A stretch of 64,000 nucleotides of DNA from Pyrenophora tritici-repentis. Its lineage: Eukaryota; Ascomycota; Dothideomycetes; Pleosporales; Pleosporaceae. The stretch covers positions 9,848,451 to 9,912,450 of the forward strand of contig NC_089390.1 of assembly GCF_003171515.1 (NCBI RefSeq), given 5' to 3'. Both the position numbers and the translations under genes were made by a program. Under the pieces are notes generated by a model, which was not told the origin of the DNA, did no database searches, and saw nothing but the letters and a program-made list of their open reading frames with translations. Within the stretch, counting starts at the first letter, position 1. Each line of letters opens with the position of its first letter. Of the stretch, positions 14,907 to 64,000 are shown in pieces.

Positions 14907-15011
14907 CTATCCAGTTTGCGATGAACACCTGGCAGGTCAAAGATCTTTTCGCTGATCGACCAAGAAGTGCTGAAACTAACCGGCCGCACGGCTCTCAAGA
15001 TGCCCAGTTAC

Positions 15012-15173
15012 TAGACTCCGCAACAATCAATTCAATCCGGTCACTCTCCTAGACCCACTTACCTATCTAGGTAGGGCTTAAACTCCTATAGGTAACTACT
15101 AGGCTTAAAGCGGTAATCAATCAATCCAATCTGAACCTTCTAGGACCCACTTAATTGATTGTTGCGGACTGTG
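15012..15173 (+). mobile_element. MITE-A copy 1 (hAT-type, 162 bp)
   Basis: Begins TAGACTCCGCAACAATC and ends GATTGTTGCGGACTGTG. The 8-bp duplications CCAGTTAC lie at 15004-15011 and 15174-15181. Its terminal repeats share CTCCGCAACAATCAAT with MITE-B except at the outermost bases, while the interiors differ. Confidence 0.93.
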
Positions 15174-15181
15174 CCAGTTAC

Positions 15182-36421: not shown

Positions 36422-36583
36422 TAGACTCCGCAACAATCAATTCAATCCGGTCACTCTCCTAGACCCACTTACCTATCTAGGTAGGGCTTAAACTCCTATA
36501 GGTAACTACTAGGCTTAAAGCGGTAATCAATCAATCCAATCTGAACCTTCTAGGACCCACTTAATTGATTGTTGCGGACTGTG
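36422..36583 (+). mobile_element. MITE-A copy 2, inside copia-2 pol
   Basis: 162 bp, 8-bp duplications CTGCTCCG at 36414-36421 and 36584-36591. Same sequence as the copy at 15012-15173 by eye. Splits the protease-integrase linker of copia-2. Confidence 0.94.
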
Positions 36584-38159: not shown

Positions 38160-39529
38160 TATTGCGTGTTCGTTGCTCGTTATAGAGGCAGTGAGACTCT
38201 TAATTGTCAGATCAGATAAGATATTGCACAAAAGTGATGGATGTTTATGATTTATTTGTTCTTTTCTCTGTTCTAAGGTGCGCGCTGAGAGTTTTGTTCT
38301 GCTAAGACGCTAACCCGTTATTAGCTAGCGGTGTCGGCACTTTCGGCTCGACACGCCTGCTATCTGACAGAATCAATCATGCCGATCCGATTGATTGTTG
38401 CGGAGTCTGATTTCTACGGCCTAAACATGGCCGACGTCGCGCCGCTGGCGTACGCAGCGAACCCGATCACTGAGCCCGCGCTTATTCTCCTTGGAGAGAG
38501 TTTTGACCGACTTATCGAGTGCGCGCACCGTTCTATCCGCGAGGATAAGATTAGCGTCTTCGACCAGGCACAGATTAACAGCTTCATCTCCGGCCGTTCA
38601 GGCAGGCACGATCGTATGCTCATGGTCAAACTAGCCAAGAGTACGTTTCGCGCCTATAAGGGCATCTGGAAGCGCCTTCTCTGCTTCGTGTATCGAACAA
38701 GCCAGCCAACGCAGAGCATCCCCTTACTACACAGGCTCACTACCGCCCAGCTATTTCATCTTGATCGGGCCCTTCACCTTGCAGAGCAGCTCTCGCCCCT
38801 CCAGCGCCTATCACGAAGTAACGCGTCACTTACAGAGGAAGCAGGAGTAGAAGAGATAGTCCGCGACCTAGACAGGGCCTGTCTGCTCCTCTGTATTGCT
38901 CTGCTCGACCACACGCTCCAAGGCGACCATTTTGAGAGTGTAGTATTGAGCTTTCTTGCTGTTCTAGGTATTGACGGGAGCTCTGGTGGCGTCTTCCGCG
39001 GCCCGCTTAGCTATTCCCCTGATCTCTCCAAGTTTGTCAAAATGGCGCAGATGCTTGTTGTACAACGATCAGTAGTAGCTGCAGAAGACGGCGAGGTGGA
39101 ACACCCCTCCTACATGCTAGACGAGATGAGGGAGCGGTTCATGGTTCGAGGATCTCGCACAGCCTTTGACTGGGCGTGCCGCTTGCGATCGTACGCAAAA
39201 AAAGTAGTAAGCAACACGACGTCGCTTGGCTACATCGCCTGGTCAGAGGATGGAAGCTTAGTCACGTACAAGGACACAGGCTTCAGCATGGACGCGCTTC
39301 GCAAATTTATTGCCGTTCAGGTTAAAAAAGCCCAGCAAGAGCTAGAAGATCTGCTTCTACTCCATCCTGAAGAAGCTCGCGACGATATTGTGCCACCGGT
39401 CTATCTCTATCGCCTCCAAGATAACCACAGCAACGGGCAAAAAGGCTGGAACTTCCTGAAAGACCAGCGCAATGCGGATCAGCTCCAGGAGGGTGGCGAT
39501 AGATGGTTGCTTAATAGAGTTCTTGAGAA

Positions 39530-39657
39530 CAGACTCCGCAACAATCAATCGATCGACATGATTGATTCCTATATAGGTTAAAGAGTTACTTTATTAGGCA
39601 GCCTTTAACCTAGATAGGAATCAATCATGCCGATCCGATTGATTGTTGCGGAGTCTG
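39530..39657 (+). mobile_element. MITE-B copy 3, inside TLH-N
   Basis: 128 bp, 8-bp duplications CTTGAGAA at 39522-39529 and 39658-39665. Splits TLH-N within codon 605. Confidence 0.94.
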
Positions 39658-40238
39658 CTTGAGAACGACTGGCTGAGGAACGAGATGGTTGCTATGAGCC
39701 CAGAGTCGCAGCTTCGGTGGAAGAAGAAGGCAGTGCAGGCGTACTTTGAGAAGGTGGACAAGTTCCTTGAACGGCTGCTCCTCCTCATCCACATGACGGG
39801 CGGCCAGCCTCCGCGTGGTACAGAGCTCATAGGACTGCAGCACAGCAACACCGCCCAGGGACAGCACCGCGGTATCTTTCTAGAAGAAGGGTTGATTAGC
39901 ACAGTCACCTCGTACCACAAGGGCTACAACATTACTGGATCGACAAAGATTATCCACCGATACCTACCAAAAGAAGTAAGCGAGCTGCTGGTGTACTACC
40001 TATGGCTTATCCTGCCCTTTTGGCAGCAGCTTGATATCCTCGTCTATAAGCGCAAAGATCCACATTCTACCTTTCTTTGGCCAAAGGGAAGCGGAACCTG
40101 GGACTCAAGCAGGCTTACAAGAGTAATTGCACGAGAAGCCCGTCTATACCTTGATACAACACTTAGTATCCTAATTTACCGGCATCTTGCTATTGCTATA
40201 TCCCGCCAACACCTTCCCTGTGGCGGCTTTAAGCGAGA

Positions 40239-43200
40239 TGTTGGATCAGAGGAGAGATGAGAGAGAAGGTTGTTCTATTGAGAGAGTTGCAGAGAGCGAC
40301 TATATACATGAAGTAGAGTATCTGGAGCATTCCAGATCAGCAGTGTGTTACGTAGCTGTGACGATAGTAGAACATTCTAGTTGACACACCCCCTGAGGGC
40401 TGACACACCCCCTGAGGTTTCCATATTAGATGGATACCTCAAAAACAAATTGAAAGAGATGCAGACTAAACTATGGATGAGGCACAGGACATGGCACGTC
40501 CTTGACGATGAGATGACGGATGTCCTTCATGCCCAGCTGTCTGACAAAGTTCTCGTGTTTCTGACGAGGAAGTAGCTTAGTGAAGCCGTCAGCAGGCATC
40601 TCAGCAGTAGGTTTCCACTCAACAGTGATCCTTTCAGCTTCCACCTCTTGGCGGAGCCACATTTGATGAATGTCGACGTGACGAAGCTTGGTTTGAATTC
40701 GATCAGAATCGCCTTGTACGAGGCGTACAGTCTGAGCGTTGTCACACCAGAGAGCCTTCTTGGTGTGAAGCGTGAAGCCAATGTTGCGGCAGAAGCGATC
40801 CCAGTATTGCGATTCAACGCCAGCAGCAGAGAGAGCGTAGAGCTCTGCTTCAGTAGTAGAGCGGGTTACTGATCGAAGTACGGTAGCCTTCCAGTCAACA
40901 GGCATGCCGTACAGCATAAAAACGTATCCAGCAGATGATCGACGAGTCTCTACATCGTCTCCGAATGAGGCATCAGCAGCACCGAAGAACGTAGGCAGTG
41001 TTGAGTTGATCTTTGTTGCAAACGTCTGGGTAGGCTCACCCCCTCGAGCACTGATGGCCAGATACCTAGTACCGTACAGGTATTGCCACACGTGCTTGAT
41101 CTCCGAGAGGTGAACTGGTCCTGGATTGATCAGGAACCGTGAAAGGATTGAGTGAGCGTGAGCGACGTCAGGACGCGTCATGATCTCAATGTACGCTAGG
41201 TTGCCAACAAGGCGTTGATAGGTTTTCGTAAGCAAAGGATCAGACACTCCATCGTAGGGTAATAGCCTCGACGTAGAGGAGAGAGGCGTGGAAGGGTATC
41301 TTCCATCAGAGCGGATAAGGTCAAACTCAGTGCAGACCTTGTTGATGAACGCATCCTGGACTAGGTAGAGCTGGCGGCTAGCAAGAACTCGCTCAACTCG
41401 AATACCGAGGAACCATTTAACGTTGCCCATTTGGCGCAGGCTATATAGCTTAATAAGCTGTCGTTCGAGCTTCTCGAAATCTTCTTGGTAGTCGGGGTGA
41501 TAGAGGATGATGATATCGTCCACGTAGAAGAACAGGATTATCCGATCGTTCATCCAAAGGCATGGGAACCCTTGAACAGGGTGTAGCCCAAGCTTTCGCA
41601 GTGAAGCTTGGAGGTGTATAGCCCACAAGCGTGGAGCTTCCTTCAGGCCATACAGGGCGCGCAGAAGTCGAAGAATCTGGCCGTATCTATCCTGGAATCC
41701 ATCCGGAGTTCGTACATGTAGAGGACGATTAAGTGTAGCGTTAAGGAACGCGTTTGGCACATCGTATTGCATTGCGTTAAGGTTGAAAGCACATGCAAGA
41801 GCCATAAGAGCTCGGAAGAGGCGAGCAGCAAGAGTAGCTGCGTACGTATCGCCGTACTGATCCTGCAGATCTCCTCGGACGACAATTCGAGCCTTGTATT
41901 TGAGAAGATATCCATCTTCATCAAATTTGTAGGTGAATACCCACATCAAGGGTACAGCATCTGTTGTGTCTGCTGTGATGTCTGGTTTGGCAAAGGTGCC
42001 TTTCTTCCAGCAGCTGTTGAATTCTGCGTAAGCAGCAGCTTCAAATTGCTTTCCATGAGCGTGACGTTTCAGTTCTTTCCAGTGACGTGGTGGAGGCGGA
42101 AGATCATCGCGATGAATGCGAGTAGGATCAGATCGCGTTGGTTGTGATGCAGCTGAGATAGCATCATTTGCTTGCGCAATCGTAGCAGAAAAAGCAAAGT
42201 ACTTAGAAAGGTCAGGGGCTGCCTCGATGTAGTGCGCTTGGCGACGTCGTCTGCCAGTGATGATGTTGTCCTGTGAGAGATTCGGGTCTCGTCGTTGCGG
42301 AGCATTGTTCTGATGTCGATCTGGTATGTAGATCTCAGCGTCGTCGTCGTAGTTGTTCCACCCCCAGGTGTCCTGTGTGGAGATGAGTCCATCAAAGCAG
42401 AGGACTCCTGCAGTAGTTGTTGTTCAACTGGATCAGGAGAAGGACTTCGATCTTGTCCTTCGAAAGCGGGTGTAGGAGATGGAGAGAGGAGTTGGCGAAC
42501 AGGCTTCTGATACACTGCAATAGTGTCACTATCATACTCCTTTTCAGATACATGATCTAGTGGTAGGACAGGCGTAGTGATTGCTTCCTGTCGTTGTCGT
42601 ACAGGCTGCGCCACGACAATGGTATCTCCATCGTATTCCTCCTCAGGAATGTGGACCGTCTCGATAATGCGAGGCTCCACGGGTGTTGTTGATGGCTTCT
42701 CCTTGTAAAGCTCATCAATGAAGCGTACATCTCGTACACGGATAACTCGATTCGTGGTAGGTATCCAGACTCGATAGATGTTCGAAGCGTCGTATCCAAT
42801 AAGGAATCCTTCAAAGGTGCGCTTCTCCAGTTTATCCCCTCTTAGGAGATGCTTGTCAAGTATGAATCCACGGCTTCCAATGATATGGAGTCGTGATAGA
42901 TCTGGTCGAATGCCAGTGACCATCTCTTGTGGCGTACGCCATTCAAGAGCCTTTGTCGGAGTGACGTTGAGGAGTCTTACCGCAGTACAGACTAGCTCAT
43001 TAGCTAGTGCCTTAGGTAGACCAGCATGGATACGGATGACTCTGGCGACTGTAACAATCACGGCTCCAGCTCTCTCCGCACCCCCAGCTGTGCTGGAGTA
43101 TCAGGTGATCTCATTTCTACCTTAATACCTGCTGATGATAGCTCTTCTTGAGCAGAGGAACCGAGGTGTGCCTCAGCTCTGCCATACCCAACGTCTCCAT

Positions 43201-45615
43201 CCATGAAGACTATAGCTACCTGGTAGCCGTATACTCTTTCAATCTTGTTGATGAGTCGAATAATAGCAGGAACAACAGTAGCTTTGTGTCGACTCCTGAG
43301 AGTACAGATCTCATGAAATTTCGTGTACTCACACACTGCATGCAATGCCCATACGTCACCGTTGTAACATACTGCGCCATGTTCCTGAAGTTGGATAATG
43401 TCGATTGAAATGCGATAGAAAGGTCGACAGGCTTTATCAGCGCGAGGACGGCGACTGATGTCTTCCTTCATCTTGCCTTGAATACACGATACACAATCGT
43501 CTGTCCATGGATCTCCTTTTCCGTTTGTGCCTATCTTGAGGCCAGTAGTTGCATCTTGAAGGTGTTCAAGTGCCTGATAGCTTGGGTGTCCGAGCAGTTG
43601 ATGCGCTCGCATCGCAGTGACAGTTTGAGGAGCCTTCTCCTGGCTCGATCTTGCAGCCATGCTGAGAAGCTCATGGCGAGGAGGGCGATCAGCCTCCTTC
43701 GCATCGAGCAGCCAGTGGCCATGACTGTATTCAAGGTTGGCTACAACATTGGAGATCCTCTCTTTGTAGAGGATGTTGCGCCCTGAATCGAAGTGGATGC
43801 CTGAGCGTCGGCAGCGTCCAAGGGCGAAGAGGTTCGTGAGAAAACCTGGTACGTACGCGACATGCGTCAGGAGTATATCCTTCTTCTGATTGCCTCGATT
43901 AACATTGATGATCACCTCCCCCAGGCAGCAACCTGATAGCTAGTTGCGCCTGCGAAGATAACGTCGGTTGATTTGGCATTTGACGTCGTACGCCAGTTGA
44001 AATAGGTCGAGTTGCAGATATGGACGTTGGAACCAGGATCAACGATCCATCTGTCGAGCAGAGTATCACCTTTTGGTGTTGTAATCTGAGCCAAGTGAAA
44101 CGCATTGTTTGCGTAATAGTCTCCGTTCGAGTCATTGTCGTCGATTCGATCAGCGTAAGGTCGTCGGCCTCTGGATGCTGAAGTGGGTCTATCGGTCTTA
44201 TTCTCGGTCTTATTCTCGGTCTTCTTCTCAGATCGATCGGAGTTTTGTGCTGTATCGAACGTCCATCGGACGTTGTTATCCTTGTAGAGCTTCTTGATCT
44301 TCTTCAAGAGCTCGCGATCCTTAAAAGCAGTACGAACTGTGCTGAGTCTTGTTCGATTTGGTCTAAAACCTTCTGGACGGCCTTCTGCCGTTTCGTTTAG
44401 AGTGTAGCACTCTAAGATATTGTGATAGAGGCCACAGACGCATTGCGGACGGTTGTTTGGCCTTGTGTCGGTGATAGCTAGAGTAGCCTGGGTGGCCTGG
44501 GTGCTGTCCTTGGCTGCAAAGCTGCCAAGAGTCTTCGTGTGGGTACGCTTCGTCGCGATCCATCGTCGGTATCGGTTAATCAAAGCTTCAAGTGTTGGAG
44601 GGTCCTTTTTGTCCTCCTCACAGCCAATCATTAGAGTGAAATGCTGGTTAGACCAGTCAGCATCTCCTTGGGCTTCAACAGCCTGTATGAAGGCCCACTG
44701 TGGACGTGTCCCTTTCATCTCAGCCATATCTTCTGATTGGCAGAGAGACGCAATTCGAGAATATTCGTTTAGCCACGTATCAACGTTCTGGTTCCTCCGC
44801 TTCTGCTGAATAGCAGCATATTGCGAAGAAAGCTCTAGAATTTGCTGTTGATTAGTGATCCGAAAGTGATCCTGAAGTGTTCTAAGACGTAATCGTACGT
44901 CCAGATCTAGGTTGGTAATAAGATGCAGCTTTGATCGAGCTACCGTCCGTGTGATTTCAAGGTTAACCTCTCCTATAGCCTTGAGGGTAGCCTTCTGAGC
45001 ATTCGTCTTGATCTCCCACCTCCTCCACGCACTGTCTGAAGCAGTGTCTGATGGCTCGTCATCGACAGTTGGAGGTAGCTTGTTTGTGGAAGGATCGCAG
45101 TATTCCCACACACCTTTGACGGTGGCGAACTCCTTCTTCAAGGAGTACCAGAGCTTCCAATCGCTCTGGTTCTCGAGGATAACTGATGCGCGACTGACAA
45201 CTTGATCGTCCCGAGCGCTCGAGGATGCCATGATGGCCAAAAGAGCTGCCTTGCTAAGCGGCAGAGAAGCTTCGAGAAGTGATCTCAAAGGACGTGAGAA
45301 TAGATCTCAAAAAGAGAGCGTGAGACACCTTGTTTCAACGCTACAACAAGACACAAGAACAGCGTATACAACAGCGTGAACTGTGTGAATGGAGTGAACA
45401 ATCTCGTTTGAATATCGCAGCTTATTGCGGGGATACCGGGCTCATAACTGTTGGATCAGAGGAGAGATGAGAGAGAAGGTTGTTCTATTGAGAGAGTTGC
45501 AGAGAGCGACTATATACATGAAGTAGAGTATCTGGAGCATTCCAGATCAGCAGTGTGTTACGTAGCTGTGACGATAGTAGAACATTCTAGTTGACACACC
45601 CCCTGAGGGCTGACA
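40239..45615 (-). mobile_element. Ty1/copia retrotransposon copia-3
   Basis: 5377 bp. 167-bp LTRs at 40239-40405 and 45449-45615 look identical. Target duplications are CGAGA at 40234-40238 and 45616-45620. The primer-binding site beside the right LTR (- strand GTTATGAGCCCGG) is the same half initiator-tRNA-Met type as in copia-1. The polypurine tract (CCTCAGGGGGTG on the - strand) adjoins the left LTR, and a second copy of that tract lies within the LTR. Splits TLH-N within codon 796. Confidence 0.94.
40471..45231 (-). pseudogene. copia-3 Gag-Pol with three frameshifts
   Basis: From the ATG at 45231 (MASSSARDDQVV) the polyprotein runs through Gag with knuckle CVCGLYHNILEC, protease (VDPGSNVHI), integrase (HQLLGHPS, CVSC), RT (DVPNAFLNA; FFYVDDIII) and RNase H (GAADASFGD; STTEAELYA), ending at 40471. 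The frame is lost three times, each time at a run of exactly five G on the - strand (+ strand C-runs 43918-43922, 43081-43085, 42361-42365), and each time one more G would fit the family reading. A 12-bp repeat (KTENKTENKT) lies at about 44196-44225. Either one-base contractions in the genome or systematic homopolymer errors in the assembly. Confidence 0.85.
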
Positions 45616-46023
45616 CGAGACTATGGTGTTCACAAGAAAATCGCTGATCAACAAGCAACGCATGGTACATGGATCGCCGGCACGGTGTACGCGCGAGGTC
45701 TACAGGAGGCCCCAGGCCATGTCAAAGCGCGGAGTTCAGAGTATCGAGCAGCCAGCCGGGAGTGGCACAGTTTCCTTGGATTTTGGACCTACCTCAGAGC
45801 TCGAAAGCGCCCGCTAGGTGAAGAAAGTGATGAAGAATCTCTAACCCAGGGCGCCAAGTGCACCATTATAAGGGTGGAGTTTTTTGTTAGGGATGGAGAC
45901 TACGCGTATAGCGGGTATATATCAGAACCAGGGGTATGGTGGAGTATTCTTCGTAAGTACGGTGGAGTTATATTCCCTAGGCCGATTTACACCAAATTTG
46001 GACAGGTAACTCAGCGTACGTAG

Positions 46024-46277: not shown

Positions 46278-49200
46278 ATGTCCGAACCTAGTAAAGAGTG
46301 CCAGTATTTCGAGCATATACCTGAGTACTGCATAGCAGCATGCAGAGAGTGCAGATATGCAGTGTGGCCAGATCAGATCGAGGGCCATTTACAGAGGCAG
46401 CATAAGGTCAGTCATAAGGAGGCAGAGGCAGTTGGACAGCAGATTCGCAGCTGGGCTGGGCTAGTCCAGTATCCCAGCGAGCTTGAGGTGCCGAGTGGTG
46501 TTCCAAAGCCCGTACGGCAGCTACCAGTACACGTAGATGGGATGTTGTGCCAGCTAGGTTCAGGCCAGTGTCAGCGGGTATTCCGTACCAGCAAAAGCTT
46601 GAAAAAACATTGGCGTATAGATCACGGATGGTCAGCAAGCAGCAGGGGAGGACGGCCAAGTCAAACTAAGCAGAAGAGCGTGCAAGCGCAGATGGAGAAG
46701 GGGTACCGGCTAGTCCATTGCCAGCGATTATTCGGGAGCCGGCACGGATCGCAGTATTTCCAGGTGCAGCCGCCCGACGAGGATGGCCCCGACGTCGTGC
46801 CTGTAGACGGGGCAGCAGCATGGGCGCAAGTGGGCGAGCAGATGGCCAAGGCATGGCAGGATATCGAGAGGCGTGCGCAGACGACGATCCAAGAGGGCGA
46901 GCGCGACGAGGTGAACCCATGGCTGGAGCGGACGCAGTGGTTGCCGTACCTAGTGGGCATGGAGAGGCCGGATTTGTTAGCGTGCATCGAGGAGCCCGTG
47001 GCAGAGCCCGATGCCAGGCAGGAGCAGCAGGCCGAGCCGGTGGAAGCAGCGATTTGGGCAGCTATGGATGGATTGGCGCGGTTCAGCCAGGCATCGATTA
47101 TTGACCGGATTGGCGTGTTTATACGGTTGGAGGCAATTCGCACAGAGATGCACCAAACCCGGTTCCAGCCGTTGCAGCCGTATATGGACAAGGACGCCAT
47201 TGTCAAGCACACACGACCATGGCAGCAGATGTTAATGTTTTTTGCACGCACACAGAAAGAGCACGCGTGGAAGAGCCCCAAGTATCGGTTCACGCGGCGG
47301 CAGCGAGAGGCATGGGAGGTGTTAATCGAACAGGCAAAGCGGAGCATAGAGGGAGACGAAGAAGATGAAGCCGAGGATATGGACGAGGAGAGAGAAGAGC
47401 TGGACGAGGAGATGATGGACGACATAGACGAGTCGATAGAGGTAGCCGAGGAAGAGCCAGGTCAGGGAGAAGGCCCCGAGCCTAAGAAGTTGTCTAAGAT
47501 ACAGAAAGCGTGTTTGGAGTTTTGCATTGCATTACTTAACCACCGCATCACCCGTAGAGAGTATGACAGCCCGCTGGTGTGCGCGTTGGCGGTGCTGGGC
47601 GTCAAGGAGGACGGGTGGAAGGGGCCGGAGCAGTACCCGCCGATATTGTCGGCGGTGATCAAGATCGCTCGGTTTATGGTCGTGCAGAAGGGACTAGAGA
47701 TGTCCGGGCCCGACGAGGATAGCGGCGATGAGACGGACGACGACTTGGATGACAGCGCGTACGAGAGCGGGCCGAGCCAGCGACGGCGTCCCAAGGGATG
47801 TTTGCAGTTAGTGCAGAGGATGATGGACCGGTTTATGGTGCGCGGCAGCCATAGCCCCATGCAGTGGATGTTGGATTTGCGGACGTATGGATTAAAGATC
47901 CATTACAACACTACAACCCGCGGGCATGTAGAGTGGACGAACGGCGACGAGCTGCTGTACAAAGAGCTGCATTTTAGCATGGCGCAGTTCCGCGGCATGG
48001 TACATGGGCTAGCTAGCGAGAGCCGGCGATTATTGACAGAGGAGTTGATGTTTGGCAGCAAGGCAGCGCCGGTGCCAGCAGTGCCATGGGAGAGCATACG
48101 TGACAACCCAACCGACGAGCGGCCAGGATGGAATTTTTTGAAGGATCATCGCACAAGCATGCCCGTCGACGGCGAGAGGTGGTTATTTGAGCGGGTAGGT
48201 AAGAGCGCCAGCATCCGGAGTCGGTTCATGAAGCCCGGGACGCAGTCAGGGGTAGACCGACAGGCAGTGGAGCGGTACATGGACCGGGTGGTAGAATTTC
48301 GCGAGAAGCTGGCGGTGTTGATGCATATGACGGGCGGGCAGCCAGTAGACTCCGCAACAATCAATTCAATCCGGTCACTCTCCTAGACCCACTTACCTAT
48401 CTAGGTAGGGCTTAAACTCCTATAGGTAACTACTAGGCTTAAAGCGGTAATCAATCAATCCAATCTGAACCTTCTAGGACCCACTTAATTGATTGTTGCG
48501 GACTGTGGCAGCCAGCGCGAGGGCCGGAGCTACTGAGCGTACGGCATAGCAACACAGTGCAAGGGGGGCATCGCAATATATTCATCGAGGACGGCATGGT
48601 AGTGTTTGTGACGCGGTACCACAAGGGATACAAAGTCAGCGGCGACGTCAAGATTATCCATCGATATTTGCCGCGCGAGGTGGGCGAGCTGGTAGTGTGG
48701 TACATGTGGCTAGTGTTGCCGTTCCAGCAGCGGCTCGAGGCGTTGGTGTGGGAGAAGGAGGCAGTTTCGTCACATATGTGGCCAGCGGACCCCAGTGGCC
48801 GCAAATGGACGACCGATCGACTGCGGGAGGCGTTGAAGCGCGAGAGCCGGATCGCAATGGGCCAGGAGTGGACGTTTGCTAGGTACCGGGAGATAGCAAT
48901 TGGCATTAGCCGGCGGTTTTTGCGTAGAGCGACTGCGTTCCAGGCAGATGAGGGCGAGGAGAACAAGGAGTGGGCTGAGGAGCAGGCAGGAGATTCGATT
49001 GCCAACGAGCAGGCGGGCCATACGTCGCACGTGGCGGGACTGGTATACGCGCGAGGGATCATGGAGCAGTCAGGGGCCGTGGCGGATAGGCGGCAGCAGT
49101 TCCGGGCATCGAGCACGGATTGGCATAGATTTTTGGGCTTCCAGGCAGGCGTGGACGACCAGAGAAGAAGCAGCAAGCGGAAGAGAGCGCCGTTTGAGAG

Positions 49201-51201
49201 CGAGGCAGACGAGGCAAGGGTGGATCGGTGGCAGCGGCTGAGGAAGATGGACGCGAGGGCGCAGCTGAAGCGCATGATGGGCGAAAAGGCCGAGTTCCGG
49301 GGCGTTCAGGAGGCAGCGATCAAAGCCATCACAGCAGGCGAGAGTCCCGTAGTAGCGGTGATGCCGACGGGGCAGGCAAGAGCTTGTTGTTCATGTTGCC
49401 GGCGTGGGCAGAGCAGGGCGGCACGACGGTGGTGGTAGTGCCGTTGATCGCGTTGCGTGGCGACATGGCACAGCGGTGCAAGAAGCTAGGGATATCGTGC
49501 GTAGAGTGGCAGAGTCGGCGTCCGCCAGACGCAGCAGCGGTGGTGTTAGTGACGCCCGAGTCGGCAGTTGGAGAGGAATTTGCAACGTTTTTGAACCGGC
49601 TACGAGCGACGCGGCAGCTAGATCGGATTATTATCGACGAGTGCCATATCGTGTTAAACCGGCAGTACACGTTCCGCAAGCAGATGCAGCAGCTAGGCAA
49701 GCTGGTGGCTGTAGAGACGCAGATGGTCATGTTGACAGCAACGTTGCCACCCAGCGAGGAGGACGAGTTATTCCGGCGAATGCATTTTGAGCGTGGGCAG
49801 GTAAGAATGTTTAGGGCACCGACAGCACGGAGCAACATAGCGTACCGGGTGGTAAGGGTAGAGAAGGAGAGGAAGAGACAGGAGGTAGAGGCAACGGTGT
49901 TGGCGATGGTACAGCAGAAGGTCCGAAAGTATAAGAGCGGCAAGATTGTAGTGTACGGCAACTCAGTGCCAAAGGTCAAGGGGTTAGCCGAGAAGCTCAA
50001 GTGCCATGCGTATCATCACCACGCGGTTGGCAAGGCAAGCATGTTGGGGGAGTTCATGGGCGGCAAGCAGCGGGTGATTGTGGCAACCAGCGCGTTGGGC
50101 ATGGGAGTGGACGTGCCCGATATCCGGTGCATTGTCCACATGGATTGGCCGTTTAGCGTGTTGGATTACGCGCAGGAGAGCGGGCGAGCCGGGCGAGACG
50201 GGGAGCGGAGCGAGGCGATCATGATGGTGCAGGACGGCGAGCAGCGAGCGGCGGATGACAAGCAGGGGGAGGCGGAGCAGCGGTTGGTGCGAGCATACGT
50301 CGAAGGCATAGACGAGGCGGCGACATGTAGACGGGTAGTGTTGGACGGGTATTTAGACAGGCGCGAGGCCGAGCGAGCTCGGTGCGAGGAGGGAGAGGAG
50401 AGGTGTGACGTATGCATGAGAGCCGACGGGGAGGAGATGGAGGAGGAGGAGATGGAGGAGGAGGAGATGGAGGAGGAGATGGAGGAGGAGATGGAGGAGG
50501 AGATGGAAGAGATGGAGGAGGTGGAGGAGGTGGAGGAGGTGGAGGAGATGGAGGTGGTGGAGGTGGCCGAGGGCGGCAGCAGCAACGAAGAAGAGGCGGA
50601 GACATTGGAGAGGGAGCAAGAAGAGGCGCGGCAGGCGTTTAATCAGCAGCAACGAGAGCAAGGCGGCCCGCGACAGAGATTGATACAGCAGCGGCAGCAG
50701 GAGTTCGCCGACGTCGAGTGGCTGCGTAGGCAGCTGGCGCAATGGATAAACCGGTGTGGGTTATGCGAGGCGGTAGGGCAAGGATCGAGCGCACACGACG
50801 TACGGCAATGTTGGCGACAGGAGAGCCAGCGGATCAAGGAGTCGATTAAGAGGATGGAAGAGACAATTAAGTTTGAGCGTTATTCGGGTTGTTTTTGGTG
50901 TGGAGTGCCGCAGGAGATATGCAAGCGGTGGGAAAGGAATAGTTTTGGGCGATATCAGAGAGTCCAAGACGGGGATTGCCAGTATAGAGGGATATTAATA
51001 GGCGGGTTATTAAGTATAGCATTAGGGCGGAGCGAGGTAGGAAACCGATGGACGGCGCGGTTAGAGGAGTTCGGGGTTAGTAATTCAGGAGCAGGGCCGA
51101 CGTTGTTTGAGTTTTTAGGAAAAAAGCGATTGTTAGAGACGGTTGAGAGCAATAACTTAGCAGGAGAGTTTTGTTGGATTACAAGATTAATAGGCGAGTA
51201 G
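46278..51201 (+). pseudogene. TLH: TLH-C: telomere-linked RecQ helicase with OrsD-like zinc fingers and a tyrosine-recombinase-like block
   Basis: Expected length is 1584 residues from the ATG at 46278 (MSEPSKECQYFE). Order: OrsD-like zinc fingers (CRECRYAVWP...H, about 22-45; CQLGSGQCQRVF...H); an acidic linker; MVRGSHSPMQW; a recombinase-like block (RGPEL Arg691, YHKG Lys726, RYRE Arg814, His858, Tyr867); then a RecQ helicase with Walker A, DECH (49635-49646), TATLP, QESGRAGRDG and a Cys cluster (RCDVC). A Glu/Met-rich tract (50437-50560) and a C-terminal zinc module (CGLC...CGVPQEIC...CQYRGI) follow. Two lesions are seen: MITE-A inserted one codon before Arg691, and one missing G in the run 49369-49372 inside Walker A. 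Orientation is toward the telomere. TLH genes are known next to telomeres in several fungi; proposed roles there are in telomere rescue. Confidence 0.85.
48346..48507 (+). mobile_element. MITE-A copy 3, inside TLH-C
   Basis: 162 bp, 8-bp duplications GCAGCCAG at 48338-48345 and 48508-48515. It adds 170 bp, not a multiple of three, and introduces stops. Confidence 0.95.
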
Positions 51202-53798: not shown

Positions 53799-53960
53799 CA
53801 CAGTCCGCAACAATCAATTAAGTGGGTCCTAGAAGGTTCAGATTGGATTGATTGATTACCGCTTTAAGCCTAGTAGTTACCTATAGGAGTTTAAGCCCTA
53901 CCTAGATAGGTAAGTGGGTCTAGGAGAGTGACCGGATTGAATTGATTGTTGCGGAGTCTA
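53799..53960 (-). mobile_element. MITE-A copy 4, inside hAT-4
   Basis: 162 bp in reverse orientation (CACAGTCCGCAAC at the left, GTTGCGGAGTCTA at the right), 8-bp duplications TGGGTGAT at 53791-53798 and 53961-53968. Identical by eye to the other three copies. Confidence 0.95.
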
Positions 53961-54780
53961 TGGGTGATGACGTGGGGATAGGAGATGGAGTAAGAGACGT
54001 TAAATCTAGTCTTATAATATTCGATGGGGACGGTGAGGTTGGTGTTGAAGGCTCCATAACAATAGTATATAAGTAGGTTGTTAAGGACTTGATTGTTCTA
54101 TGTAAGTAGAAGACTTACCTTGATCTTAATGACTCATATTGTGCTAAATTTTCTGGCTAGATTAGTCTAAGATCTAGTCACGTGGACCTATTTATAGCCG
54201 GACCGGTCCGATCATCTAGACCGGTCCGACCACGGTCTCAAAAAATCGCCAGACCAGACCAAGTCTTGGCGGTCTAGACCAGACCAAGACCAAGTCAGAC
54301 CAGACCATTCCGATCACTGAGCTCGAGTAGCTCGGATAGTGTAAGCAGCGATAAAGGCAAGAGCAGCAAGATTAGCGAGAGCGTAGGCAGGGTTAGCAGC
54401 AAGAGAGATAGCAGCAACAGTGACGATAGTAGCAGCAGTAAGAGTAGCGACGAAGGCGAGGGTAGTAAAGATATTAGAGGTAGCGAAAGCAGCGGCAACA
54501 GCGAGAGCAATGAGAGCAACGACAAAGACGAGGGCAGAGAAGGTAATGAGAGCGGCGAGAGCAGTAAGAGCGCAGGCAGCGTTGGTAGCGAGAGCAATAG
54601 CTGCAACAGTGGCGATAGTGGCGACAGCGAGAGTAGCGAGAGTAGCGAGGGCAGCGAGGGCAGCGAGGATAGCGAGAACAGCGAGAGCAACTTGATGGCA
54701 GGCAGCGTAAGCAGTAATAGCAGCTTGAGCAGGGAGGAAAAGCGAGGGTCGTGACGACGGCGAGAGTAGCTCCAATAGCG

Positions 54781-54870
54781 AGAGCAGCAAGAGCGAGAGC
54801 AGCAAGAGCGAGAGCAGCAAGAGCGAGAGCAGCAAGAGCGAGAGCAGCAAGAGCGAGAGCAGCAAGAGCG
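54781..54870 (+). repeat. 15-bp tandem repeat, six units
   Basis: AGAGCAGCAAGAGCG repeated six times without change. Confidence 0.92.
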
Positions 54871-57800
54871 GCAAGAGCAAGGAGAGCGAGGCAGGCGAGG
54901 CAGGCGAGAGCAACGAGATGGCAAGTAGCGAGAGCGTAGGGAGCGAGAGAGGCGAGAGAAATAAGAGCAGCGACATGATAGGTAGCGTCGGCAGCGAGAG
55001 CATCGAGAGCCGCGCATATAGCGAGAGTAACGAGAACAGAGCGAGTAGCGGGAGCAGCGACGACGGTAAGGACAGCGACGAAGGCGAGGACAGCGAGGAT
55101 ATTAAGAACAGGAGGCGTGGGAGCAATAGGAGGGTAGGAGAAATAGGGAGGATATTAAGAGCAGCGCAAGCAGTAGGGACAGCGAGAGTAGGAGCCGCAG
55201 CGGCGAAAGGAGTTGTAGAAGCCGTAGCAGCGGTAGGAAGTGAGAAGCAGCGAGAGTAGCACGAGCAGCGGGGGACAGCAGGGACAGCGAGAGCAGTAGG
55301 GAAAGCAAGAGCAGGGGCAGAAGTAGTTATAGCGGCCGCAGGCGTAGTAGGAGCGGTGGGGAGTGAGGAGCAGAAGCGAGGATATCGATAGCAGCGAGAG
55401 CAGCGAGGACGGCGGGGATAGTAGGGATAGCGGGATCAGCTGTGAGAGAAGCGAGGATAGCGAGAGTAGGAGAGCAGGAGCCGCAGGCGCGATAGAAGTA
55501 AGAGTAGCAAGAGCAATAAAAGTAGGAGGCGCAACAACAATAGAAGCTTCGCAGTAGCCGTAGGCGCAGGAGGAGCAGGAGAATTATAATTAACAGCGAG
55601 GATGCGGAGAGTAGGGGCCGCAGCGTCGGCAGAAGTTATAGAAGCCGTAGAAGCCGCAGAAGCCGCAGAAGCCGCAGGTATAGAAGGAGGCGTAGGAGAT
55701 AAAGGGCAGTAGCGAGTGTAAGGAGAGCAGCAAGAGGGGATACCGCAGCAGCGATAGAAGCAGAGCAGTAGCAGTAGCAGTAGCGGCAGGAGCAATAGTA
55801 AGAATATTAAGAGCAGGGCGAGTAGTAAGGACAGAGGGGATATCGGGCAAAGCGAGAGCAGCGGAGAAGGCGAGAGGAGCAAGGACGGCAGGGATAGTAG
55901 AAATAGCAAGAGTAGTAAGAGTAGTAAGAGTAGTAAGAGTAGTAAGAGTAGTAAGAGTAGTAAGAGTAGCAAGAGTAGCAAGAGGAGGATGTGTAACCGC
56001 GAGGATAGAGGCAATGAAGGTAATTAAGGTAATTGCGATAATTGCAGGGTTAGTAAGAGCAACAAGGGCAACACAAGAAAGGCGCGAACGGCAAGGGAAT
56101 TAACAATTAAGTTAATTATAGCGATTGCAAAGACGGCGGGAACAGCGAGGATATTAAGGGCAGTAAGGGTAGCAAGGACAGCGCAAGCAGCGAGGACAAC
56201 GAGGACAGCGAGGACAGTGAAAGTAGGAGAGTAGCAGTAGCAATAGCAGTAGCCGGAGGTGTATATAAGGTGTAGGAGGTAAGAGGTAGAAGTAAGGATA
56301 TTATAAGCAGCAAGGATAGCAGGGGCAGAAGCGGCAACAGGTGCAGGGGTAGTAGGAGTAGTAATAAGAATATTAAGAGCAGTGCAAGTTATAAGGACAG
56401 GGACAAAGTAAGGACAGCAGAGATAGTAAGAGTATCAGGAGCAGGGAGAGCAGAAGCCGTAGGATTAATAGCGAAGATATTAAGAGCAGCAAGGAAATCG
56501 AAAGCAGCGAGGGTAGTAGGAGCAGCGACAAGATGAGGCGTAGCGGCCGCCGAAACCGCAGTTACCGCAGGTGGAGGAGGCGTAGGAGGTAAGGGGCAGA
56601 AGAGAGCAGTAGAGACAGCGGGAAGAGCGGGGAAAGCGAGAGCAGCAAGAAGGACGGGGATAGTAGAGATAGAGGAAGTGGGGAGAGCAGAAGCAGTAAT
56701 AGGGAGGATTGCGGAATGGGGAGGAGTAAGAGCGGCAGGAGTAAGAGTAGCAAGAGCAGGAGGTAGAAGTAAGAGGGGTAGGAGCAGGAGCAGTAAGAAT
56801 AGCAGGAGCAGTAAGAATAGTAGGTGTAGCAAGGGTAGGAGCCGCAGTGGCGATAGTGTAGAAGCGGCAGTAAACACAGGTGTATTCGTAGCGGTAGGAA
56901 TAATAACGAGCATGTTGAGAGCAGCAAGGACGGCAGGAACAGCGGGAGTTGCAATAGTAGAACTGGAACGGGTAATTAAATGGACAGTAAGAGTGATAGT
57001 AGCGATAGAAGGAAAGGTTACAAGAATAGCAGGGGTAGAGGTGGTAGAAGCGAGAGTAATTGTAATTAAGGCAAAGATAGTAGTAGTAAGAGTATTGAGT
57101 ACAGTGAGAGTACGGTAAGAGCAAAAGTTCAAAGAAGAGTTATTTATGTTAAAAATAAGCATGCGGGTATAAAGCAAAGAAAGAAAGATTAGAAAAGAGA
57201 GAGTATAAAGTCGGTGAGATTAATAATAGATAGATAAGGTAAGTAAAACCGGTATAGTTTGTAGTATATATTAGATTGTGTTTGAGAAAGAAATAAATCA
57301 TTAAATCAAGTCGGATTCGAGGATTAGGATTGTAGTAGAAGACAGAGCAAGTTGTTAGGAATAGATTAATGAGAAGATAGAAGAGATTAGAATCAAATAA
57401 TAGTAAAAAGAGATAGTTATTAGAAAAAAATAAAGAGAAAAAAGAAACCCGATAAGATTTAAGGGGAGTATAGTAGAGGGAATAGACGATGAGTAGAAGA
57501 AGAAAGAGAGAGAAAGATAAGGAAGTTTATAGAGAAGGACACAAGAAGCAATCGATAAAGAAAAGAAGGAGAAGTAAAGAAAATAGAAAGAGAAGTAAAG
57601 ATAAATATAGAGCAGGGTAAAGAGAGAGATTAGCAAGAATAGTAGTAGTAATAAGGATAAGGATAGAGTTGAGGTAGAGTACAATAAGGCATAGTTAGTA
57701 TTTAAGCAATAGTAGTAAGACGACGCCGGCGGTGTTAGACGTTTATACAGTAGGTACAGTTTAAGTTTGCCGACGTAGAATCGTGATAGAGGTACATAGG

Positions 57801-58209
57801 GTAGTAGATAATGCGATGCAGTATATAGACGGCGGTAGGCGAAGGATAGAGCCGACACAAGGTACAAGAGTATTAGAGAATTAAGAGGCAATAGGCAAAG
57901 GAGATAGTTAAAGAATTATTTAGGTAGTGTTTAGTATAGCGAGTGGTAGGAGGTATGCATATAAGTAATAAGGAGATAATTAATATAAAGGTAATTAGAT
58001 AGCAGATACAAAAGATTGTTAGTTTAGAGGGTATTTATAGCAGGATTGTTAGGATAAGTATAGGGAAGCAAGAATAGGGTTAAGTGATAAAAGGGAGTAA
58101 ATCATATTAAGAATAAGAAGAGATGGAAACAGATAGAGAAGAAAGGAAAAGAGGAAAGGAAAGAAGAGAGGGGAAGGATGGATGTGGTGGAGAGGAGAGA
58201 TAAGGAGGG

Positions 58210-58610
58210 GCAGGGAGGGTTAGAGCAGCATGAGCAGGAGCGACAAGGGGAGTGGCGGAGGTGAATATAGCAGCGGCAACAGGAGTTTAGGGGGTAAAGT
58301 AGTAAGGTAGGGAACATGCAAAGGGGCGGGTAATGGGCGAAGCGGGAAAAATATAGGGAGATATTAGTAAGGGGAGAGGGGAAGTGTAAAAAAAGCGATT
58401 AAGATTTTTTAGGAGCAGATTCAGTTTAAGGATTATAAGGGGTGTTTTTAGTAGGGGGTAGGGTAGGAGAGGAATTGTTAGGGGCGGTATTAGAAGGTAA
58501 GAGATGTAAATTAACAGTATAAAGGAGTATTTAGGGGGGGTTAATAGTGGCAGAGTTTGGGTAGACGGAGGTAGGAAAGTGTTAGGGGGCGGGGTTAAAG
58601 GGGAGAAGAG
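58210..58610 (+). pseudogene. Decayed TLH 3' end, relic 1
   Basis: Aligns by eye with 50630-51060 of TLH-C. Examples: AATATAGCAGCGGCAACAGG here against GATACAGCAGCGGCAGCAGG there; GCGATTAAGA against TCGATTAAGA; GGAGGTAGGAAA against GCGAGGTAGGAAA. It is full of stops. Most differences remove C or change G to A. Confidence 0.65.
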
Positions 58611-58628
58611 GATTTACAGTGGATAAGA

Positions 58629-58728
58629 CAGGGTTAGGGTTTAAGAATAAAGAGAGGGTTAGGGTTCAAGGATGAAGAGAGTGTTAGGGTTCACGAATAA
58701 AGAGAGGATTAGGGTTGGAGAAAAAAGA
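58629..58728 (+). repeat. 25-bp tandem repeat containing TTAGGGTT
   Basis: TTAGGGTT recurs at 58634, 58659, 58684 and 58709, a constant 25-bp spacing, with the spacer close to TAAGAATAAAGAGAGGG in each unit. A telomere-like motif embedded in a longer repeat. Confidence 0.85.
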
Positions 58729-58769
58729 GAGCGATAGGTAAGAAATAAATAGAAGAATGAAAATGTTTA

Positions 58770-59240
58770 TAAGGAAGGAGATAAAGAAGGATTATATTGC
58801 AATTAGGATAGTAGGAGAAAATAGATAGGGAATATGCGAAGGGCGGGTGATTGGCAAAGCGAGGACAAAATAGGGAGATGTTAGTAACGGGAGAGGGGAA
58901 GTATAAAAGAAACGGTTAAGATTATGTTAGAGCAGATTTAGTATAAGGGTTATTCGTTGCGTTTTTATTAGGGGGTTAGGCAGGATAAATGTAAGGGGTA
59001 GGAGAGGAATTGTTAGGGGCAGTATTGGATGGTAAGAGACGCAAATTGATAGTATAACAGAGTATTAATAGAGGGGTTAATAGGGGAAGAGGTAGGGTAG
59101 AGAGAGATAGAAGAGTTAGGGAGCAAGGTTATGGTGTGTAGAGTTGTTAGGAAAGAAGGGAATGTTAGAGATAGTAGAAAGCAATTTTTTAGCGGGAGGG
59201 TTATATTAGATTATAGGGTTGATAGCGGAGTTTAGGTAAT
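58770..59240 (+). pseudogene. Decayed TLH 3' end, relic 2
   Basis: Aligns with 50690-51201 of TLH-C, including the coding end. Examples: GGGTTATTCGTTGCGTTTTT against GCGTTATTCGGGTTGTTTTT; GGAGAGGAATTGTTAGGGGC against GGGAAAGGAATAGTTTTGGGC; GAATGTTAGAGATAGT against GATTGTTAGAGACGGT. Multiple stops; clearly non-coding now. A second copy in the same orientation about 500 bp after relic 1. Confidence 0.65.
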
Positions 59241-59381
59241 CAAAAATATAGATAGTAGGATGGATAGTAGCAGCAGAGATATTTTACACACGCATAATGA
59301 TTAATTGTTGATAAAGAGGGATTTTTAGAAAGGTGTAAAATTATAACGAAAAATTCCGATTTAAAACAAAAGAATACGTAG

Positions 59382-59569
59382 TGTTGGAAGGTCTATAGCA
59401 CTAGTGCTGAAAGGAAATAACGATAACTAGGAATGCATTCTGTTCGGTGATGGTGATTTATTACGAACACAGCTGCTACGAAGGTATACCTAAGCTCTGC
59501 GCAAGGTGGGCCGAAGTCGGGCCGAAGTGTCCAGCAGCCGACGTCTCTACCGATACTCACGATCCGACA
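59382..59569 (+). repeat. Solo LTR (family LTR-D)
   Basis: 188 bp of normal base composition, TGTTGGAAGG...GATCCGACA, with 5-bp duplications CGTAG at 59377-59381 and 59570-59574. Its unbiased composition inside the C-poor tract marks it as a later arrival. Confidence 0.88.
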
Positions 59570-61161
59570 CGTAGAGAATAAAGATGAAGATAATTCAAGA
59601 TTTTACAATGTAGAGTAGTAAGTAGAATTAAGAAATAAAGTATAAGATACAATTAAGAAAGCGAGATTAAAAGAGGAAGAAGAAAGTAAGAGTAAAAGAA
59701 GAGGAAGGTAAATAAGAGTGAAAGAAGAAGAAGAGAATTAGAACAAGGGAGGGGTGTAGAGTTAAAAAGCAAAGAAGTGAGATTAAACAAGATTAATTAT
59801 GAAAAAGTTTAAAATAAAGGAATAGAAGAAGAAATTAGAGTGGTAAATAAGGATTTACAGCAAGAGCGGCGAGGAATGCAAGGGCGGTAAAGATAGGGGG
59901 AAGAGCAACGAAGGCGAGAGCAGTAAGATGGCAGGTAGTATTAGCAGGAAGAGAAGCGAGAGGGTAGAGAGGGAGAGCAAGAAGAGCAAGGAGAGGGTAG
60001 GGAGCAACAGCAGTGACAGTAGCGAGAGCGATAGCAGGGTAGGCAGAGAGAGCAGTAAGAGTAGTAAGAGGGTAGGTAGGGAGAGAAATGTAGCAGCAGC
60101 GAGAACAGCGAGGGCAGTAAGGTCGGCGAGGGTAGTAAGGTCGGCGAGGAGAGCGAGAGCGTAGGTAGTGTAGGCAGCAAGAGCAACAGTAGTAACAGTG
60201 GCGATATTGGCGAGAGTAGCACGAGCAGTAAGAGCAGTAAGAGTGTAGGTAGTAAGAGAAAGGAGAGCGGGGGGAGTAACAAGATAGTAGACAGCAAAAG
60301 AAGTAATAGTAGTAAGCAGCGAGGAAGGCAAGGAAGGCAACGACAGCGAGGGTGGTAATATTAGCGATGGCGGCGAGAGTGTAGGCATTAAGAGAAGTAA
60401 GAGGAAGAAGAGTAATAAGAGCAGCAAGAGGAAAGAAAATAAGAGTAATAGTAGTAAGATAAATAAACGTTTTTAGCGTAATAAAAATATAATAAGGAGA
60501 TAATTAGAGTAGAAAGGATAAAAAAATAAGTAGAAAAGGGTAACAGCAGCGAGAGCAAAAGCGTAGGTAGTAAAAGTAGTAATAGCAGAGATAGCATCGA
60601 AAGTAACGAGAGTAATAGCAGCAACAGTAGCGATAGTAGTAAAAGCGAGAGCAGAGAGGATAGCAACAGCGTAGGCAGTAAAAGCAGCAAAGGCGCGGGT
60701 AGTAAGAAGGCAGGTAGCGAAGGAAACGAGAAAGAAAGTAGCAATAACAGCGAAAGTAGCAAAATAGCAGACAGCGTTGGCAGTAAAATGGTTGGCATCG
60801 ACAGAAAGGAAAGAAAGAAAGCGAAAGCAAGAGTAGCGATAGCAGTAACAGTAGCAAGAGCAGTAAGAAGGGCAAGGGTAGTAAAGTAAGCGAAAGCAAG
60901 GCGAATAAGGAAAGCAACAAGAAGGGCGGGTTTTATAAGAGTAGCAAGGGCAGGATTGTTAGCAAAAGCAAGATAATTAGTAAAAACAGCGAAGAGGGGG
61001 AATAGAAATTAGGGTTGAATAGTAAGTACAGAAGAGCAAAAAGAGAAAAAGTCAGTTAGAGAAAACAGAATTAAATATAGGAAAGAGTTTAGGATTTGTA
61101 CTTAAAAAGAAAACGAGTTTAATATACAAGAAAGGATCAGGGTTTTAAGAGTAGTAAGTGT

Positions 61162-61266
61162 AGTAAGAGGGCGGGTAGTAAGAGGGCGGGTAGTAAGAGG
61201 GCGGGTAGTAAGAGGGCGGGTAGTAAGAGGGCGGGTAGTAAGAGGGCGGGTAGTAAGAGCGCAGGT
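61162..61266 (+). repeat. 15-bp tandem repeat, seven units
   Basis: AGTAAGAGGGCGGGT six times, then a variant AGTAAGAGCGCAGGT. Confidence 0.9.
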
Positions 61267-63923
61267 AGCGAATGATAGTAAAGGCAGCGATAAGGGCGAG
61301 AGTGTCACGGACGTAAGGGCGGCGAGGATAGCGACAAAGGCGAGGGCAGCGACAAAGACGAAGGCAGTAAAGATATGGGGAGCAGGGAGGAAGGCGAGAG
61401 AAATATAAGTAGTAATAGCAAAGATAGCGATAGCAGTAACAGTAGCAATAGTAGGGAGAGCAGCAATAAGATAGGTAGTAAAAGCGTAGGTAGTAACAGG
61501 GGCAAGAGCGAGGGAAGGGAGAGTAGCAAGATAGTAGGCAGAGTTAGTAGGAAGAGAAAGGGTTGCCGAGAGGGGAATAGCAGGGAGAGTAATAGTAGCA
61601 AGATCGATAGCAGGGTAGTTAGGGAAATAGTAAGTAGCGAGAAAATACAGTAGTAGGGAGAATAGCGAGAGAGACATAGTAGTAGAGAGAGAAATAGTTA
61701 GGGAGAGGGAGAGTAAAAAGGGTTAGGGAGAAGAGATTAGAAAGAAGTAAAAGAAGAAGAGGAAGTTTAAGAAAGAGAAGAGTAGATAGAGAAAAGAAAG
61801 GAAGAAAATAAAGAGAAAAGAAGAAGGGGGAAAAGTAGAAAAAGGAGAAAAAGAGGATTAGAGAGTTAAAATAGAGAGTAAAAAGAAGGGGGAAAGGTGT
61901 AGTGTGTATAAAGAATTGATAAGGATGAGGGTAAGGGAGAGGGGGAGAGGGAGAGGGGGAGAGTGTGAGTGTGAGGGGAGGTGTAAGGGTAAGGGAGAGG
62001 GTTAGGGTGAAAGGGTAAGAGCAAGGGAGAGAGTTAGGGAGAGTAAAGAGGGTCAGGGATTGTAGTAAAAGAACAAGAGTAGGGAGAGTAAGTAAGGGTA
62101 GATAAGAATTACCCGCCCGTTAGGTAAAGAATAATTAAGCAGATAGTAGATTGTATGTGGAGGAATTTTAGGGAGGAAGAAATACAAGAGAGTTTAATAG
62201 AAAATAAGAAAGAGAGGATTAAGAGTAGGCGGAAGGGCGAAGGGAGAGGGTAGGGCAGAGGAAAAGAGGTTAAGTTTCAAGAAGCCGGCCGTTGCGGTAG
62301 TAATAATACAAAAGCGAGAGTAGTAGAAAAGAATATAAGAGAATATTATGTTTTAGGGGTAGATAGATAAGAGAGGGCGCGGAGTTGTAGACGCAAAATA
62401 ATAGTAGAGAAAGAAAATACAAGAGAGATCGAGGTAAAGGCAAAGAAAGAGAGTAAGAAGAGGAGTTTTATCAAGGTAAGATAGATTAAGGGGGCGCAGA
62501 GGGTAAATTGTAAGAGTAGAGAGTAGAGAAAGAAGAGAGAGAGAGTAAGAGTAAGCTGTAAGGTATCACAAAAAGGGTAGAGGAGAGGGTAGAGTAGAGA
62601 GAAGAAGTTTAACAAGTATAAGATAAAAGAAAGAAGAAATATAAAAGTAGAGAGAAGTAAAGAAGAAGAAGAGAATCGAAGAAGTATAGGAGGATAGAAA
62701 GAAAAGAAGGAGGTAAACGAAAAGAGAAAATAAATAAGAAGAGTATAAAAGAAGATAGTTAGAAATTAAGACGAAGTAGATAAGGAAAGAGGTATATTAG
62801 AAGAAGAAAGGATAAAGAGAAAAGAGAGGAAAGAAAAGTAGATTATTAAAAGAGAAAGAAGAAGGTAAGAGTAGAAGTAAGCGTAAAAGTAAGAGGAAAG
62901 AGAAAGAGAGTAAGAGTACGAGTAGGAGTAAAGGTAGTAATAATAGTATTAGTGAGTGTAAGAGTAAAGGGAATAATAAGAATAAGAGTAACGGTGATAA
63001 GGAGGGAGAAATAGAAGAGAAAAATAAAAAAAGTATTATAAAGCGGTAAGAAAAGAAGAAGAAAATAAAGACAAAGGGAGAAATGTAAAAAGTAGAAAGA
63101 AGAGAAAAGAGAGTTAGAAAGTAGAAAGTAAGAATAGAAAAGTAGTGATTAGAGAGTAAGGAGAAGGAGTAGAAGTGCAGTATGTATAAAGAATAAATTA
63201 AGGAGAAGATAGTAGAGAAAAAGATTAGAGGAAAGAAAGGTAAAAGAGAAAAAGGTAGAAAGAGGAAAGTAGAGTAAAGAAGATAAAGAAGAGTAAGAAA
63301 GGGACAGTAGAGAAAAGAATAGGAAGAGGTAATAGGTAGAAAGTAGAAAGAAGATAACAGTAGAAAAGAAAAGAGAGAAATAGGTAGAAGAGTAGAGAGA
63401 AGAAGTTTAATAAGTAGAAGATAAAAGGGAGAAGAAATATAAGAGTAGGGGAGAGTAAAAAGAACAGAGTTAAGGAAGAGGAAATAAGAAGAGTATAAAA
63501 GAAGATGGTATGAAGTAGAGATAAAGTAGAGAAGAGGAGAAGAAAATTAGGAGAAGAAAAGATAGAGGGGTAAGAGAGGGAGAAGAAGATAAGTGAAAGA
63601 GAGGAGGAGAGAAAGTGAAAGAGAAGAGGGGAGAAAAGAGAAGAGAAGAAATAAAGAGAATAAAGGGAAAGTAGAGAGTGAAAGGGTAGAAGAGTAGAAA
63701 AGAAGAGTTTATAGAGTAAAAGAGAAGAAGTAAAGAAAGTAAAGAGTGAAGGGATAGAAGAAGAAGAGTAGGGAATTAAAATGAAAAGGTAGGAGAGAAG
63801 AAGTAGAAAGTAAAGAAAATAAGAATAGGAGGTATAGAGAGTAGAATTGGAGAGTAGAAGAAAGAGGGAAGTTAGAGGAGAGTTAGAAGTTAGGAGAGTT
63901 GAGGAGGGAGGGTGGTGGTTAGA

Positions 63924-64000
63924 GGGTTAGGGTTAGGGTTAGGGTTAGGGTTAGGGTTAGGGTTAGGGTTAGGGTTAGGGTTAGGTTAGGGTTAGGGTTA
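63924..64000 (+). repeat. Telomere repeat array (TTAGGG)n
   Basis: About thirteen GGGTTA units running to the last base of the window, one of them shortened to five bases (GGTTA) near 63984. The G-rich strand runs 5' to 3' outward, so this is a right chromosome end. Confidence 0.98.

Follow-up and report, generated by a model that had tools for sequence, protein, structure and literature searches.

Does a telomere-linked RecQ helicase (TLH) gene at a chromosome end of Pyrenophora tritici-repentis also encode a strand-transfer enzyme, and could such an enzyme be responsible for the place of the gene at the chromosome end? The question is raised by TLH-C, a gene in the last 64 kb of contig C1 (NC_089390.1, positions 9,848,451 to 9,912,450), a chromosome end in a genome of 40.9 Mb; this whole stretch of 64,000 nucleotides is called the window below. 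The original prediction placed a catalytic block of the tyrosine recombinase type between the OrsD-like fingers and the helicase of this gene. A tyrosine-recombinase-fold domain is predicted there from structural models of related proteins, and the units carrying the gene share one exact left end. The gene and its parts, as well as the end of the chromosome, are given below.

46278..51201, + strand: TLH-C gene, encoding OrsD, predicted tyrosine recombinase and RecQ helicase in this order; broken in the window copy
46305..46625, + strand: OrsD domain, zinc-finger-like (Pfam PF12013, E 1.2e-21)
47922..49141, + strand: predicted tyrosine-recombinase-fold domain (AlphaFold2 models of relatives), split by the insert at 48346-48508
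48346..48508, + strand: insert of about 163 bp in the recombinase block, resembling a miniature inverted-repeat transposable element (MITE), with 16-bp inverted repeats and the flanking direct repeat GGCAGCCAG
48518..48520, + strand: first catalytic-type Arg (691), present in 316/319 relatives
48623..48625, + strand: beta-hairpin Lys (726), 317/317 relatives
48887..48889, + strand: second catalytic-type Arg (814), 259/263 relatives
49019..49021, + strand: His (858), 247/249 relatives
49046..49048, + strand: Tyr (867), presumed nucleophile, 243/245 relatives
49360..49375, + strand: frame break at the helicase Walker A motif, near 49370
49369..50202, + strand: RecQ-type helicase core, DEAD and Helicase_C (Pfam E 4.1e-15 and 5.1e-15)
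63923..64000, + strand: telomere repeats at the end of the window

Catalytic-type residues and predicted fold of the TLH-C block

Codons of the five residues, predicted at 691, 726, 814, 858 and 867, were found exactly at these positions. Relatives of the block were taken from the best 120 of 362 matches and from two more searches (best 120 of 1122 and best 120 of 420), giving an aligned set of 325 different listed proteins and 394 columns; they were found via shared short words, so the set is biased to similar proteins. Arg, Lys, Arg, His and Tyr are all present in 255 of the 265 relatives covering every site, and each of the 10 exceptions deviates at a single one of the five. Among the 394 columns, Lys ranks 2 in conservation, His 7, Tyr 9, the first Arg 10 and the second Arg 15, while the Glu of the RxxE motif ranks 4; the anticipated conservation of the five residues across TLH homologues is thus borne out. 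The chance that five random columns all fall in the top 15 is about 4 in 10^8, a figure that ignores the frequent conservation of such residue types and the choice of relatives by shared short words. The distance of nine between His858 and Tyr867, noted for the window copy, recurs in 255/255 relatives. Genera represented by named proteins among the matches listed include Alternaria, Hortaea, Aspergillus, Penicillium, Botrytis, Colletotrichum, Fusarium and Talaromyces; the closest named protein, among the same matches, is from Pyrenophora tritici-repentis (96% identity).

Two departures from the classical motif order, already pointed out in the original prediction, are both real: the block lacks the HxxR His that normally stands three residues ahead of the second Arg, and the gap from Arg814 to His858 is long and acidic. 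In most relatives, position -3 is occupied by Ala, Gln or Ser, and Tyr or Trp directly precedes Arg814. The His of HxxR varies within the tyrosine recombinase / topoisomerase IB superfamily. Its absence from TLH proteins would suit a domesticated, non-catalytic fold serving DNA binding alone, like that of the DUF3504 proteins, whose domains come from Crypton recombinases and have lost catalytic residues (passages of PMC3212892). However, the residues lost from DUF3504 proteins are Tyr and the second Arg (same source), and TLH relatives retain the full set of five in the proportion given above; domestication is therefore considered improbable.

AlphaFold2 models of two relatives, P0055 and P0129, match Xer, Cre and lambda Int, and the strongest structural neighbours of both predicted models lie in the tyrosine recombinase superfamily, in agreement with the fold expected for the block. 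The limits of the domain (47922..49141) were set by the range over which the P0129 model aligned. Similar to the recombinases XerA, XerH, Cre and lambda Int and to the protelomerases, the block has the predicted catalytic fold, the residue order and the His-Tyr spacing of nine, but differs from them in the long acidic insert between the second Arg and His, the missing HxxR His, and the fusion with OrsD and helicase.

At the level of sequence, the family is hard to recognize. According to Pfam, OrsD opens TLH-C, and DEAD and Helicase_C close it, with no matches above the curated cut-off between them. Phage_integrase (PF00589), DUF3435 (PF11917) and GCR1_C gave no match to the TLH-C pieces and six relatives at E <= 1, and PF00589 gave none across the whole genome at E <= 0.001; neither Pfam nor PHROG nor the sequence-level comparisons brought up a recombinase family at E <= 1 for any protein scanned. 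When a profile was run against solved structures, the best 60 of 268 matches were all helicases. In the Foldseek comparison with a viral library, some integrases were near the top with E 0.08 or worse, and hhalign, run on 72 XerD-like sequences, brought the Arg, Lys and second-Arg boxes into register with a marginal score, the global mode being without success. The missing Pfam match and the weak sequence-level comparison would be expected if the helicase-linker region resembled recombinase motifs by chance, but both predicted structures are nearest to the recombinase superfamily and the predicted sites are conserved; accidental likeness is hardly credible. Pfam thus seems to miss, in the proteins scanned here, a recombinase family found in many fungal genera. 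The proposed fusion of fingers, recombinase and helicase is supported, for OrsD and helicase by Pfam and for the recombinase as a fold predicted by modelling.

The continuity of the block in the window copy did not hold: the MITE-like insert, overlooked in the original prediction, sits immediately ahead of Arg691. It starts with GT, with a possible AG at its end, and its splicing as an intron is conceivable. An internal 29-mer of this element was found 448 times in the genome, and further copies are present in the window at 15012-15173, 36421-36583 and 53799-53961. An intact TLH copy on C7 of the same genome has an uninterrupted frame of 1611 codons with all motifs. The four motif blocks lie in one frame in 20 of the 30 genome copies fetched (stops ignored), and the Arg box is absent from the frame in 10/30. 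In copies L015-L023 and L028, the match begins 4 to 15 residues into the query, just beyond the Arg box, and close to it the sequence is broken or carries an insertion, as in the window copy; a hotspot or purged activity is possible there.

The block also occurs in proteins lacking the helicase. A second TLH copy in the window, TLH-B, resembles proteins that stop shortly after the Tyr; it is split by retroelements into the following parts.

28973..29671, + strand: TLH-B, OrsD part
38379..39560, + strand: TLH-B, middle part
39643..40257, + strand: TLH-B, recombinase part with RGTEL, YHKG and YRHLAIAISR
45607..45842, + strand: TLH-B, His-Tyr part (THGTWIAGTVYARG) and 3' end, cut by the left end of TLH-C

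In a tree of 77 sequences, short proteins form two clades, both with support of 100/100 (P0186, P0218, P0232 and P0236; P0221, P0194 and P0198), with tails of 49-69 residues. All seven members keep the complete set of five residues, and the block has therefore likely persisted over a long period in the absence of a helicase. The remaining short proteins are scattered in the tree, with at least 11 label changes overall, and may be truncated gene models. An isolated piece at 21022-21471 is similar, with 29% identity, to the C-terminal domain of TLH proteins.

Left end of the unit and proposed replacement of chromosome tips

The left boundary of the TLH-C unit in the window comprises the following features.

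45841..45842, + strand: CT at the left joint, preceded by the 3' part of the TLH-B gene
45843..45854, + strand: left terminus of the TLH-C unit, AACCCAGGGCGC, identical to the main form
45857..45880, + strand: imperfect inverted repeat beside the left end, candidate recombinase binding site

The main form of the left end, TAACCCAGGGCGCTCAATGGTACG, was found in 29 exact places and in two with three mismatches. The window has a variant form, in which the first 12 bases are unchanged and 14 of the next 25 differ, with the joint at 45842/45843, in the 3' end of TLH-B. Joints were read for 30 of the 31 main-form places and for the window variant, i.e., 31 joints with 23 distinct flanks, and all start at the same base of the unit. 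This one exact end behind 23 flanks lends separate support to the earlier idea of the gene as part of a mobile or self-duplicating unit. The base preceding TAACCC is C in 22/23 flanks, giving CT at the joint; CT makes up 5.8% of the dinucleotides of the window. For seven flanks (one in a MITE, one in a Copia element, four at different positions of a single dispersed repeat, one in a shared subtelomere), the unoccupied target was readable from related copies, and all seven have YCT at the joint; therefore, the unit proper starts at AACCC. The left end resembles the telomere unit (GGGTTAG on the other strand). The remaining main-form place, C10:2505211 (L075, C10:2505080-2505300), is an internal left-end relic far from a contig end, with no recombinase match listed nearby.

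The target read by comparison of C3 with C5 is weaker than the other six and runs into purine-rich subtelomeric DNA, and four of these six are positions in one repeat family. The BLAST match of TLH-B to P0186 overruns the window joint by 16 bases, to 45858, which makes this joint less clean than the others.

The fate of the target was followed from its two halves, the searches on the left and right arms of C6 allowing two mismatches at most. The proximal half of the Copia target on the C6 left arm was found in 52 places and the distal half in 51, the exception being the TLH joint at C6:24970; the distal half was not found between this joint and the telomere. On the C6 right arm, the distal part of the dispersed repeat was found solely inside an intact copy. 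Simple interstitial insertion is disfavoured, the distal half of the target not having been found on the two telomere-complete arms tested, C6 left and C6 right. The second half of the MITE target on the left of C8, a contig end without telomere, was not found in C8:1-10000, 10075-13929 and 14520-15420. No right end of the unit was found in six stretches of about 10 kb and one of 19 kb, the telomere side aside. The two C6 joints look like replaced tips rather than insertions, and the data fit chromosome-tip replacement better than ordinary insertion.

Loss of the distal half is also what break repair would produce, and this is the main rival explanation: the fold is real, but TLH genes spread by break-induced replication or end joining, the recombinase serving, e.g., to resolve joined ends. 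A broken end in CT would anneal to the telomere-like left end and copy out to the telomere; the joint is a microhomology of 2-3 bp, and in the blast fungus, telomeres have been described to arise de novo from short seeds and chromosome ends to undergo break-induced replication (passages of PMC7367193). Repair at 2-3 bp of homology should, however, start at many positions of the unit, and the single start base behind 23 flanks is poorly accounted for; moreover, the recombinase residues rank with the best conserved of the block, also in proteins without the helicase. This explanation is rather unlikely.

The preferred reading, to which we assign a probability of about 0.5, is that the TLH family uses the predicted recombinase-fold domain, as encoded by TLH-C, for joining the left end AACCCAGGGCGC to YCT sites near chromosome ends, and that a cassette of TLH gene plus telomere would thereby replace the old tip. 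The domain is the candidate for making the joint because it is encoded just inside the fixed end (the start codon of TLH-C, 46278, lies 435 bp inside 45843, the gene pointing inward), its residues are kept in relatives, and a precise end is combined with a short shared core, as expected from site-specific recombination. The joint would be made via a tyrosine-DNA intermediate, with the OrsD fingers probably binding DNA and the helicase opening ends. The incoming cassette would bring its own telomere, and a single crossover would leave a distal fragment, subsequently lost, and so give the tip replacement observed.

The imperfect inverted repeat at 45857..45880 is, from its sequence, only a lead to the binding site of the recombinase. 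When the main form is compared with the window variant, three pairs of the repeat are changed on both sides and still match, while two pairs of the window variant mismatch; a repeat in the same place occurs in L031-L056. A single-strand hairpin at the left end was rejected as proof: folding z-scores of three variants were -0.44, 0.29 and -2.47, and the window variant folds no better than shuffled sequences.

Distribution in the genome and comparison with known systems

The catalytic piece of TLH-C gave 54 match rows in the genome, two of them internal on C1-C10 and 21 on small contigs. Near the ends of C1-C10, 30 of 31 rows face the end (two are TLH-B pieces), and C3:51920 faces away. Among the 13 arms with telomere repeats, 12 carry a telomere-facing TLH match, the exception being the start of C2 (among the best 100 of 131 rows). 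TLH-C is thus a multicopy RecQ-type helicase gene adjoining telomeres. Distal to it in the window lies the following region.

54000..63922, + strand: purine-rich subtelomeric DNA (GC skew up to 0.865, AT skew up to 0.511)

This region shows a one-strand purine bias and numerous short tandem repeats, and contains relics of a TLH C-terminus at 58181-59230. At C3:44501-63900 (L057-L058), a truncated TLH copy in reversed orientation precedes an element that has direct repeats of 154 bp, and the C5 target flank is joined there to purine-rich subtelomeric DNA. Elsewhere in the window, a 171-bp tandem repeat is present at 16859-17321 (2.7 copies, 94% matches).

Descriptions of fungal TLH genes go back to the 1990s (cited in passages of PMC4522978). 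Those of the Y' helicase, UTASa and fission yeast tlh are likewise subtelomeric multicopy RecQ-type helicase genes; the genes considered here face the telomere. In Ustilago, subtelomeric sequences with OrsD are known (PMC10532341, in part). For the subtelomeric RecQ helicases of Agaricus or other fungi, passages of PMC7473861 state that nothing beyond the helicase core was found. No paper connecting TLH or OrsD with a tyrosine recombinase was found in the openly licensed literature, many journals being outside that scope.

Cryptons, DNA transposons that in fungi combine a tyrosine recombinase with GCR1_C, share with the TLH-C unit a eukaryotic tyrosine recombinase, small size and a short shared core at the joint (passages of PMC3212892). 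TLH-C differs in the absence of a GCR1_C match (E <= 1), the fused helicase and the position of most copies at chromosome ends, and no copy with two flanking direct repeats was found. In Starships, the recombinase gene, the DUF3435 captain, likewise leads the 5' end and points inward (captain position per passages of PMC12134995). TLH-C has no DUF3435 match (E <= 1), although DUF3435 genes exist elsewhere in the genome; its unit runs on to the telomere, and a second element end was not found. The telomere-targeted retrotransposons MoTeR and FoTeR are also mobile DNA of fungal chromosome ends, and FoTeRs co-occur with TLH genes (PMC12857005, in part), but TLH-C has no reverse transcriptase by Pfam, and TLH joints lie in non-telomeric DNA.

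Meaning for fungal chromosome ends

The existence of TLH genes, of OrsD near the telomeres of Ustilago, and of Cryptons and Starships was already established; for the recombinase predicted in TLH proteins, no earlier description was found in the openly licensed literature. We tentatively propose that TLH units may represent a new class of mobile elements, in which a recombinase-helicase grafts a cassette of gene plus telomere onto YCT and discards the old end. If true, chromosome ends themselves would be the transposing unit, and the helicase-free OrsD-recombinase proteins would be relatives without the helicase. A conserved recombinase in TLH proteins would give a testable reason for their location at chromosome ends and their spread, and the turnover of fungal chromosome ends would be partly enzyme-driven.
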